Program-made: the position numbers and the translations under genes
The notes under the pieces: generated by a model
What the model saw: the letters and a program-made list of their open reading frames with translations, nothing else
What the model was told of the DNA's origin: nothing
The model's database searches: none
Shown here: positions 15,804-37,945 of the stretch, in pieces
How positions within the stretch are numbered: position 1 is the first letter of the stretch
Layout: each line of letters begins with the position of its first letter
NCBI GenBank assembly: GCA_902590245.1
Contig: CACIWG010000007.1
Coordinates: forward strand, 1-64,000
DNA: 64,000 nucleotides
Source of the DNA: an uncultured SAR116 cluster alpha proteobacterium
Lineage (GTDB): Bacteria; Pseudomonadota; Alphaproteobacteria; Puniceispirillales; Marisalimonadaceae
Reading direction: 5' to 3'

Positions 15804-15820
15804 TTAAAGAGAATTAACTA
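15801..15820. terminator. Short hairpin between convergent genes, possible bidirectional terminator
   Basis: TAGTTAA-AGAGAA-TTAACTA is a perfect 7-bp inverted repeat with a 6-base loop that spans the stop codons of both the MFS gene and the MBL hydrolase gene. The stem is almost all A/T and no long T-run follows, so it would be a weak intrinsic terminator. Its position is the main support. Confidence 0.3.
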
Positions 15821-16830
15821 TTTAAACTAAACCATTCAACTTTATTAGAATCAGAAATTTTTTTTGCATAACCTGTTTTTACTAGATTTATGAGGTGTGA
15901 TCTAGCTTCACCAATGGCAAAATGCATTTGTTCATTTCCTATTTTTTTATCAAAAATTAAACTTAAGGAGTCATAAACAGTAATATTTCTTTTTAATAAT
16001 TCATTTTTTAAAATATCTAATCTTTGATTATGATGATTTATAAGTTCTACGGCTCTGCTGTCTCCGTCTTTAAAAGGCCAATCATGACAAGGGAATACTT
16101 CAACTTCAGAGTCAATGGTTTTAATGTCATTTAAATAGTTTAAATATCCCCCCAATCTATCATCAAAAGGATCAAAAAAATTGTCTGAAACATTTGGTGA
16201 TATTCTAGGAAGTAAGAAATCTCCAGCGAGATATAAACTTCTCTTTTTGTCTGTCAACGAAATGTGTTCAGGTGAATGACCTACATCTGTTCTAACTTTC
16301 CACATGCCCTCATTTGATTCAATTTCAAAACCTTCAGATATTGTTTTAAAATCTGGTAAGTTAAAAACTTTGTTTTTATATAATCTTGTGGCTCCTAACA
16401 TTTCTTGTTTTTGTTCCCTAGGAATTCCTGATCTTTGAAAGATGTTATCAAACATAATTGAATAGTCTTCATCAGGCATGACAAACAACTTTTTTGCCAC
16501 TTCTAATTCTTTAGATGATGTAAATGCTGGAACATTTAATTTTTTTTGAAGCCAACCTGCCATGCCAATATGATCTGGATGATAGTGAGTAATAAGTAAT
16601 GAATGAATTTTTTCTGATTTTAATGGTCCATTGAGTATCTTTTCCCACATTTCAATTGAGTGATCAGATCTCAGTCCACTATCAATCAATATCCATCCAT
16701 TTTTTGTGTTTAAAAAAAATAGATTTACATGATTTAAACGAAATGGAAGTTCGAATTGAGTCCAATACAGGTCTTTCCTAAGTTCATTAAATTCGCCATG
16801 CTTTGGTATTTCATAATTTAGTTTTGTCAA
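15814..16830 (-). CDS. MBL-fold metallo-hydrolase
   Basis: The 338-residue protein has a metallo-beta-lactamase domain. The metal-binding HxHxDH motif is 'THYHPDHIGMAGW' (about residues 81-93). Further ligands are His in 'DVGHSPEHISL', Asp in 'LAGDFLLP' and His in 'VFPCHDWPF'. The C-terminal part, about 90 residues, is a helical extension seen in the glyoxalase-II-like/LACTB2-type group. It is a binuclear metal hydrolase of thioesters, lactones or phosphoesters; which one is unknown. It lies ten bases downstream of the photolyase-like gene on the same strand. Confidence 0.87.
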   Translation of the reverse strand: MTKLNYEIPKHGEFNELRKDLYWTQFELPFRLNHVNLFFLNTKNGWILIDSGLRSDHSIEMWEKILNGPLKSEKIHSLLITHYHPDHIGMAGWLQKKLNVPAFTSSKELEVAKKLFVMPDEDYSIMFDNIFQRSGIPREQKQEMLGATRLYKNKVFNLPDFKTISEGFEIESNEGMWKVRTDVGHSPEHISLTDKKRSLYLAGDFLLPRISPNVSDNFFDPFDDRLGGYLNYLNDIKTIDSEVEVFPCHDWPFKDGDSRAVELINHHNQRLDILKNELLKRNITVYDSLSLIFDKKIGNEQMHFAIGEARSHLINLVKTGYAKKISDSNKVEWFSLNS

Positions 16831-16840
16831 TTTAAGCCTC

Positions 16841-17992
16841 TTAGTTCGTTAAACCTTGTCTTTTCAATAATTCTGGGATTTTATTTTTAAAAGGGAAAAA
16901 ACCTTTTTTAGCAAATGGAAAAGCTAACCTATCCCATTCCCTTAAATAAAAAAATACATTAACATTATTATTTGTAAATTTATTTAATAGACTTTTTCTA
17001 TTCAACAAACATTTACCTTCAGTCTCATAAGGAATTATCAAATTTTTTATTTTAAATTTTGTTATCCAATTAATCAATGCCTCATCACTTAATACGTATG
17101 AAATGTTAGTATTATTATTTATAATTTCTTCACATAAGTTATTTTCAAAGTTTTTAATTAGTTCGCTTTGATTAACTAATGAATTATCACAGTTAAAAAG
17201 GCATGTTTTAAAATTAATATCTTTTTTTAACAAAGAATCTAAAGAAAAATCATTTTTGTTAATGACTAATCCAATATCCTCTAAATTACTAAAGGAAATT
17301 TTTTCAAATTCTTTATTAATAATTTGTTGATTTAAGCTTGATTGACTTTCAAGGGGAGAAGCTGTTTCATTTAGTTCATTAACAGGGTTAAATTTATAGT
17401 TTGTAAACTTATAAATATTATCTGCACGTGCAATGTAATTTTTTCCAATAGTTTGTAATCCTGCCACCCATCTCCAACTCAATGTATTTACAGCAGGGCA
17501 CCAATCGAGTAAATTTTTTTGAAAAAAAATCGCGCCATCAATCCAATCTTTTTTTAGTGTAAAGATCCATATGCTTGCATACCACATACGTGCATGATTG
17601 TGTAAATAGCCAGTTTCAATTAATTCTTGTGTCCAATAATCAAAACATTTTATGCCTGTCTTTTTAGGAGGTTCTATATCTTGTATTTTTTTTTCATATT
17701 CATTCCAGATTATTGGATGAAGTTCAAGCCATCCTCTCCAATATGTTCTCCAAAAAATTTCTTGAACAAATTTTTCTATTTTATTTGGTTTAAACTTTTG
17801 AAACGCAATATCCAAAATATCTGTTTCTGACATTAACCTTCTACCTATATATGGTGAAAGAGTAGATACATTTGTATGAGGTGAACCCAAATCAAAATTT
17901 CGTTTAGAACTATAATCAATTAAATTTTTATTAATAAATTTATCAAATTTTTCTTTTATTTCTGAAGTTTTTGTAGGAAATTGTGAGCTCAT
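16841..17992 (-). CDS. Photolyase/cryptochrome-like FAD protein with permuted domain order
   Basis: In this 383-residue protein the photolyase FAD-binding domain lies at the N-terminus. Residues 40-62 hold 'TNVSTLSPYIGRRLMSETDI' (the TSxLSPY element), 76-88 hold 'VQEIFWRTYWRGW', 130-137 'LHNHARMW', and 164-200 'DWCPAVNTLSWRWVAGLQTI', the FAD/Trp-chain core. No antenna-type Rossmann domain precedes it. Residues about 250-383 instead form an alternating strand-helix region (starting 'FKTCLFNCDNSLVNQSEL') that looks like an alpha/beta domain. Canonical photolyases have the alpha/beta domain first. It could be a light-driven DNA repair enzyme or photoreceptor. The domain assignment of the tail is inferred. 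Confidence 0.75.
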   Translation of the reverse strand: MSSQFPTKTSEIKEKFDKFINKNLIDYSSKRNFDLGSPHTNVSTLSPYIGRRLMSETDILDIAFQKFKPNKIEKFVQEIFWRTYWRGWLELHPIIWNEYEKKIQDIEPPKKTGIKCFDYWTQELIETGYLHNHARMWYASIWIFTLKKDWIDGAIFFQKNLLDWCPAVNTLSWRWVAGLQTIGKNYIARADNIYKFTNYKFNPVNELNETASPLESQSSLNQQIINKEFEKISFSNLEDIGLVINKNDFSLDSLLKKDINFKTCLFNCDNSLVNQSELIKNFENNLCEEIINNNTNISYVLSDEALINWITKFKIKNLIIPYETEGKCLLNRKSLLNKFTNNNVNVFFYLREWDRLAFPFAKKGFFPFKNKIPELLKRQGLTN

Positions 17993-36319: not shown

Positions 36320-37540
36320 ATGGATTTAAATCAAACATTTGTTAGTCATTTATCTTGCTCTTTAACTGGAGAAAAATATGATGCAAGTAAGATACATAAC
36401 CTTTCTAAAGTAGGTAAACCACTTTTAGTAAATTATTATTTAGACCAAATTAAAGAGAGAATTACCAAACCAGAAATTAGTCAAACAAATTTAAATGGAT
36501 TATGGAAATATAGTTTTTTACTACCTGTTGAAAAAGAAAATAGAGTATCACTAAATGAAGTTTTAACTCCTTTGGTAACCCTGAACAACGTAAAAAAGAA
36601 GATTGATTTCAGCGGTGATCTTGTTGTCAAAGATGAAAGTTATTTACCAACAGCCTCCTTTAAGGCGAGAGGTTTATGTTTAGCAGTTTCAATGGCGAAA
36701 CAACTTGGTATAAAACATATGGCTATACCAACTAATGGGAATGCTGGGGCAGCATTAGCTGCTTATTGTGCAAGGGCAAATATTAAATGTACTGTATTTT
36801 GTCCAGAGGATACTCCTGAAATAAATATTAAAGAAATCAATGCTCTTGGTGCTGACACTTATCTTGTAAATGGTTTTATTAATGAGTGTGGAAAAATAGT
36901 ATTTGAAGGAAAGGAAGAAACTGGGTGGTTTGATGTATCAACTTTAAAAGAGCCTTACAGAATAGAAGGGAAAAAAACTATGGGGCTTGAGCTGGCGGAA
37001 CAATTTAACTGGGAGTTACCTGATGTGATTTTTTATCCAACTGGTGGAGGAACTGGTTTGATAGGTATGTGGAAAGCATTTAATGAATTAGAGGAACTTG
37101 GATGGATCTCAAAAAAACCAAGAATGGTTGCTGTTCAATCAGATGGATGTGCACCAATTTATAAAGCATGGAAAGAAAATAAAGAATTTGCAGATCTCTG
37201 GGAAAATCCAAAAACAGTAGCTTCCGGAATTAGAGTTCCAATAGCAGTTGGAGATTTTCTAATTATTAGAGCTTTAAATGAAAGTAATGGATTTTCTATC
37301 ACAGTGTCTGATCAAGAAATATTAAATGACCGAGATTTTATATCTAAGCAAGATGGACTTTTAATGTGTCCCGAAGGTGCTGCAACTTTTTCAGCTCTTA
37401 AAAAATCTTTAAAACAAGGACTAGTCTCTAATAATGAAAAAGTTGTTTTGTTTAACTGTGCGTCTGGTCTTAAGTATCCATTATCAGATGTAAATTCTTA
37501 CATCGACAAAAATAAAAAGGTTGATTATTCAAAATTTTAA
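36320..37540 (+). CDS. thrC: Threonine synthase
   Basis: The PLP enzyme of about 406 residues converts O-phosphohomoserine to threonine. Starting at the ATG at 36320, the protein opens with a CxxTG-type segment (LSCSLTGEKYDA), then the PLP lysine Lys115 in 'LPTASFKARGL', 'IPTNGNAGAALAAYCARA' (phosphate loop), and 'YPTGGGTGLIGMW', the fold-type II glycine-rich loop. An in-frame start at 36251 would add 23 non-conserved residues, so the later ATG is preferred. It could also be a close relative acting on other substrates, but all landmarks fit ThrC. Its last 12 bases overlap the convergent GFA gene. Confidence 0.86.
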   Translation: MDLNQTFVSHLSCSLTGEKYDASKIHNLSKVGKPLLVNYYLDQIKERITKPEISQTNLNGLWKYSFLLPVEKENRVSLNEVLTPLVTLNNVKKKIDFSGDLVVKDESYLPTASFKARGLCLAVSMAKQLGIKHMAIPTNGNAGAALAAYCARANIKCTVFCPEDTPEINIKEINALGADTYLVNGFINECGKIVFEGKEETGWFDVSTLKEPYRIEGKKTMGLELAEQFNWELPDVIFYPTGGGTGLIGMWKAFNELEELGWISKKPRMVAVQSDGCAPIYKAWKENKEFADLWENPKTVASGIRVPIAVGDFLIIRALNESNGFSITVSDQEILNDRDFISKQDGLLMCPEGAATFSALKKSLKQGLVSNNEKVVLFNCASGLKYPLSDVNSYIDKNKKVDYSKF

Positions 37541-37945
37541 AATTTTTTTTTTCTGTAATGAAGCTTCCCCTTGCTTTTGATCTTCAAGTGTGAACTCTTG
37601 TCCATTTGTAAAATCAGAAACATTTTGAATCCAAGACATATAAAATCCGTCTAAACAACCAACATTAACTCCAAAAGCATTAGGATTTGTTCTTCTTTTA
37701 TTATGAGTATTTATACCACAAATTTTGCAAAAAAAATGTTTAGCAATTTTTGTGTTCCATTGATAAATACTCAAATAATCTTTTCCACTTTCTAAATTAA
37801 ATTCGTCTTTATTAACAGTCGTCATTACATAACCTTTTCTTCTACAATGAGAGCAGTTACATCTTCTAAGTTCTTTTAACTCACAATTAATAGAAAACTT
37901 TACTTTTCCACAATGACATTGACCTTTAATTTGATTTTTAGTCAT
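37529..37945 (-). CDS. GFA (glutathione-dependent formaldehyde-activating) family protein
   Basis: This 138-residue zinc protein of the GFA/CENP-V fold has 'GQCHCGKVKFSI' (first Cys pair), 'RRCNCSHCRRKGYVM' (CxCxxC cluster) and 'HFFCKICGINTHNKRRTNP' (third pair). The seven cysteines bind two zinc ions in Gfa-type proteins, which bind glutathione adducts. Most members have no proven substrate. It is 14 bases downstream of the DapA-family gene on the same strand and may be co-transcribed with it. Confidence 0.88.
   Translation of the reverse strand: MTKNQIKGQCHCGKVKFSINCELKELRRCNCSHCRRKGYVMTTVNKDEFNLESGKDYLSIYQWNTKIAKHFFCKICGINTHNKRRTNPNAFGVNVGCLDGFYMSWIQNVSDFTNGQEFTLEDQKQGEASLQKKKILKF

Follow-up and report, generated by a model that had tools for sequence, protein, structure and literature searches.

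The protein encoded on the minus strand at positions 16841–17992 of the window (the whole 64,000-nucleotide stretch of DNA analysed here) is very probably a photolyase of the NewPHL class from a SAR116 bacterium, with a predicted activity in the repair of cyclobutane pyrimidine dimers (CPDs) and with a tail that is homologous to the antenna domain of photolyases, though displaced, and probably acts as a cap. The inverted order of its two lobes is real and belongs to a class that is already known. In papers that cite the original work, NewPHL is ascribed to Emmerich et al. 2020 and takes in Prochlorococcus Phr7 (PMC9426592; PMC13274461), the members A8LJA9 of D. shibae and M7YZC8 of M. mesophilicum are named, and the enzyme is described as a photolyase that repairs CPDs in single-stranded DNA. 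The assignment follows from the inverted order, the C-terminal Rossmann-type domain, the absence of CxxC and the position in a clade with Roseobacteraceae members. The features concerned are the following:

16841..17992, minus strand: NewPHL-type photolyase gene, 383 aa
17387..17983, minus strand: N-terminal FAD/catalytic core, residues 4–202 (PF03441; hhalign)
17498..17506, minus strand: D163-W164-C165, with Asp changed to Cys at a listed FAD-binding position
17288..17386, minus strand: variable linker, residues 203–235 (poorly conserved columns in the 35-member alignment)
16844..17287, minus strand: C-terminal Rossmann-type domain, residues 236–383, the "Z-domain" of NewPHL/Phr7 (AlphaFold2, structure alignment, hhalign)
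15814..16830, minus strand: metallo-beta-lactamase-fold hydrolase gene (PF00753, E 7e-24)

The open reading frame at 16841–17992 is intact, starts with ATG and is free of internal stops. A Pfam search of the protein detected a single domain, PF03441, on residues 77–196 (E 5e-14), and no PF00875 match ahead of the FAD core, which agrees with the sequence-only reading that no antenna Rossmann domain precedes it. The four FAD core motifs, which the same reading had located within residues 45–180, were all recovered there (LSPYIG 45–50, WRTYWRGW 81–88, LHNHARMW 130–137 and WRWVAGLQT 173–181). Comparison of the N-terminal profile with that of the canonical FAD domain using hhalign gave a match with Prob 99.9 over 186 columns, and residues 9–215 align to the C-terminal halves of solved photolyases. 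The PF03441 match spans only profile positions 3–135 of 203 and thus leaves the last third of this canonical domain uncovered. The FeS cysteine motif CxxC...C is absent from the 383-aa protein.

Residues kept in nearly all members of the family are Y27, S43, L45, S46, E78, W81, R82, N132, R135, M136, D163, N169, W173 and W175. The equivalents of S. elongatus E283, W286, N349, M353 and W392, which form the CPD pocket in class I photolyases, are all retained. Two positions depart from the usual pattern: V168 stands where Ser or Ala is commoner, and residue 165, here a cysteine, is the equivalent of S. elongatus D382, which PMC9426592 lists as a FAD-binding residue. The motif D-[WFY]-C occurs in 26 of 26 genome_contigs loci (L031–L056) and in 27 order-level relatives (L162–L188), two sets that overlap in genomes, and D-x-D in 41 other NewPHL tree rows, nine SPL rows and 14 class I rows. 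Sequences with D-[WFY]-C form one clade with support 100 in a tree built without columns 164–165, and the change from Asp to Cys has, on this tree, a single origin. Since C165 replaces a FAD-binding Asp and V168 the commoner Ser/Ala, the activity of the clade could differ from that of its relatives. The remaining pocket residues being conserved, the mildest reading is that fixation of D-[WFY]-C has probably retuned the surroundings of the flavin without abolishing activity. That the SAR116-type NewPHLs are a functional variant, in which the pocket cysteine and the adjacent aromatic residue alter flavin chemistry, is a tentative proposal to which we give a rather low probability; the alteration may take the form of redox tuning, of a thiol–flavin step or of a switch from repair to sensing.

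It is also conceivable, though unlikely in our estimate, that the protein of the SAR116 clade now senses light like a cryptochrome or is a flavoprotein that has lost repair activity, with repair left to two proteins of canonical order, as the replacement of the pocket Asp by Cys would alter flavin redox or binding. The fixation of the motif throughout a well-supported clade speaks for such a change of role, as does the gene content of the host genome (1.56 Mb, 75% complete), which encodes two more photolyase-family proteins, both of canonical order: a class I CPD photolyase at C12 (L002) and a protein of 511 aa with PF00875 and PF03441 (G000:C1 ~36332–37717; L109, L111). The residues of the CPD pocket nevertheless stay conserved in the clade, which would be needless in a repair-dead protein.

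The full-length AlphaFold2 model obtained from the single sequence was unusable (pLDDT 38). For the C-terminal part (residues 222–383), a model made from 32 sequences gave pLDDT 82 and pTM 0.75. In this model five strands alternate with helices in a Rossmann-like fold, which bears out the earlier impression that the last ~130 residues are alpha/beta. The top Foldseek matches of the tail are nucleotidyl-transferases, universal stress proteins and cryptochromes/photolyases, with similar scores. Upon structural re-alignment most photolyase/cryptochrome rows give Z values of 7.4–9.3 over ~137–148 residues of the tail, the best row, 8ijy, giving Z 10.1 over 107 residues; the matched part runs from the chain start to about residue 160–176 and thus corresponds to the N-terminal antenna domain. 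A sequence search of the PDB yielded no NewPHL structure. Universal stress proteins align over ~100–110 residues with Z up to 8.3. A Z value of about 8 is indecisive by itself, and a profile-sequence test of the tail was therefore added. The tail profile aligns end to end with a profile of diverse antenna domains (154 columns, 22% identity), with a global P of 3e-4 to 5e-4 in hhalign, and among 400 controls shuffled by column or by block not one scores as high, either locally or globally. The match to an antenna profile restricted to class I is weak (P 0.004–0.011) and becomes stronger as the antenna profile is made more diverse.

These results bear on the alternative that the tail is an unrelated domain of the HUP/Rossmann kind, such as one of the universal-stress-protein or nucleotidyl-transferase type, which was recruited independently. 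The similar Foldseek scores of universal-stress-protein and PPAT structures, together with the Z of 8.3 attained by the former, would fit this origin, and so would the absence of PF00875 matches in the tails of all 35 members and an hhalign probability of only 14–32% for the tail–antenna match. Against it, universal stress proteins align over ~104 residues compared with ~141 for photolyases, and their profile, used as a control, has no global match to the tail, whereas the match to the antenna profile is collinear over its whole length. Moreover, placing the tail before the FAD lobe in silico lengthens the match to canonical photolyases from 195 to 349 columns; among 100 block-shuffled tails none equals the number of columns or the summed probability, and one equals the raw score. 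We thus consider independent recruitment quite improbable. Sequence and fold together support the view that the tail is a homologue of the antenna domain, a relationship that the sequence-only reading had raised conditionally.

The reordered tail and FAD lobe give one collinear match to canonical photolyases, and the domain order is therefore truly inverted. The arrangement is not a clean circular permutation, since the FAD lobe is shorter than canonical FAD domains at its C-terminal end; the tail substitutes for the part that is missing. The earlier suggestion of a circular permutation or a separate lineage is thus retained as to the inverted order and has to be abandoned as to a clean permutation and to novelty, homologues of the same order having already been characterised as NewPHL/Phr7.

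The named relatives nearest to the host genome are bacteria of the SAR116 cluster. A match at E <= 1e-20 was obtained in 29 of 289 genomes sampled from the class; of 61 near relatives, 41 have a match. Both counts take in FAD-only forms. Two-lobed homologues occur in SAR116, other Alphaproteobacteria, Gammaproteobacteria, Opitutia/Verrucomicrobiota and Planctomycetes (Planctomycetota); full-length, stop-free sequences share 54–99% identity within SAR116 and 30–40% in other phyla. Both lobes are kept in the alignment of 35 members, and a Roseobacteraceae homologue of the same architecture covers 98% of the query. No relative was confirmed on viral contigs. An assembly or frame artefact joining a FAD-only SPL to an unrelated downstream ORF, for which the FAD-only SPLs of 218–295 aa in the same class might have provided the material, is dismissed because the stop-free fusion recurs in dozens of independent genomes at 30–99% identity. 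In a tree computed without the D. shibae and M. mesophilicum references, the window protein clades with Roseobacteraceae sequences (Ruegeria L191, Roseovarius L070; SH-aLRT 96), and this clade stands apart from class I and from eight of nine SPL rows, the ninth (L076) being a long-branch row truncated behind the FAD core, with 250 aa. We infer the NewPHL orthology of the window protein from its architecture and its relatives.

The metallo-beta-lactamase-fold hydrolase gene lies on the same strand, 10 bases 3' of the photolyase gene, and the pairing is kept in the closest relatives only (L031–L037, L040, L041). The neighbourhood is conserved to this extent and offers no functional clue; the hydrolase is taken as a neighbour only. 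In some Alphaproteobacteria a photolyase-family gene of canonical order is found within a few kb of the NewPHL gene (G128:C5 ~132738–134275; G104:C4 ~309813–314692; G035:C1 ~123862–130140). At another locus (L027, G213) a FAD-only SPL gene lies near an ORF on the opposite strand that starts like a PF00875 photolyase/cryptochrome.

By homology with characterised photolyases, FAD would be bound by the N-terminal lobe, and blue/UVA light would excite the reduced flavin, from which an electron would pass to a cyclobutane pyrimidine dimer and split it. The dimer would sit in the conserved pocket of E78, W81, N132, M136 and W175, and a preference for single-stranded DNA may be expected from the characterised NewPHLs. 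The C-terminal lobe would substitute for the segment that the FAD lobe lacks, its most likely role being that of a structural cap over the FAD site; in the NewPHL paper this domain is reportedly given the role of shielding the FAD site, which would fit the shortened FAD lobe of the window protein. Synthesis of the antenna cofactor 8-HDF requires cofH; as this gene was not found in the incomplete genome, there is no sign of 8-HDF synthesis, which is weak evidence.

There is thus evidence from both sequence and fold that the domain at the tail of the inverted NewPHL architecture is truly homologous to the antenna domain of photolyases. This bears on the origin of the photolyase/cryptochrome family, with its FAD-only SPLs, tail-antenna NewPHLs and front-antenna canonical forms. 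The clade of ocean bacteria with one changed flavin-contact residue, for its part, may serve as a natural mutant for probing the role of that residue.

Comparison with known systems places the protein as follows. It shares with the class I CPD photolyase of its own genome the FAD core, the CPD-pocket residues and an antenna-type domain; there, however, the antenna comes first and the FAD domain is last and full-length, and membership among canonical photolyases/cryptochromes is ruled out by the lack of a PF00875 antenna domain ahead of the FAD domain. Phr4/Phr5 and Phr6 of marine Synechococcus/Cyanobium likewise have the FAD and photolyase domains reversed, but they have FeS cysteines, and in the case of Phr4/Phr5 the domains lie in two neighbouring ORFs (PMC9426592). 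SPLs, among them SePhrC, are counted as a class (PMC9178010), and their forms without an alpha/beta domain are credited to Xu et al. 2021 in PMC9649867; they resemble the window protein in the N-terminal FAD core, the HNHARM-type motif and the adjoining tree group. The SPLs examined stop after the FAD core, and some bear CxxC...C, whereas the window protein is without this motif and adds a C-terminal alpha/beta domain that rules out SPL membership. Inverted domain topology is described for NewPHLs/SPLs (PMC13274461), and FeS cysteines are absent from Phr7 (PMC9426592). The NewPHLs, finally, are bacterial and share with the window protein the N-terminal FAD domain, the C-terminal "Z-domain" and the lack of FeS cysteines (PMC9426592; PMC13274461). 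The difference, and what is new here to judge from the aligned sequences, is the clade-wide cysteine of the SAR116-type NewPHLs at the position of the flavin-pocket Asp, where the other NewPHLs examined, Roseobacteraceae included, have D-x-D.
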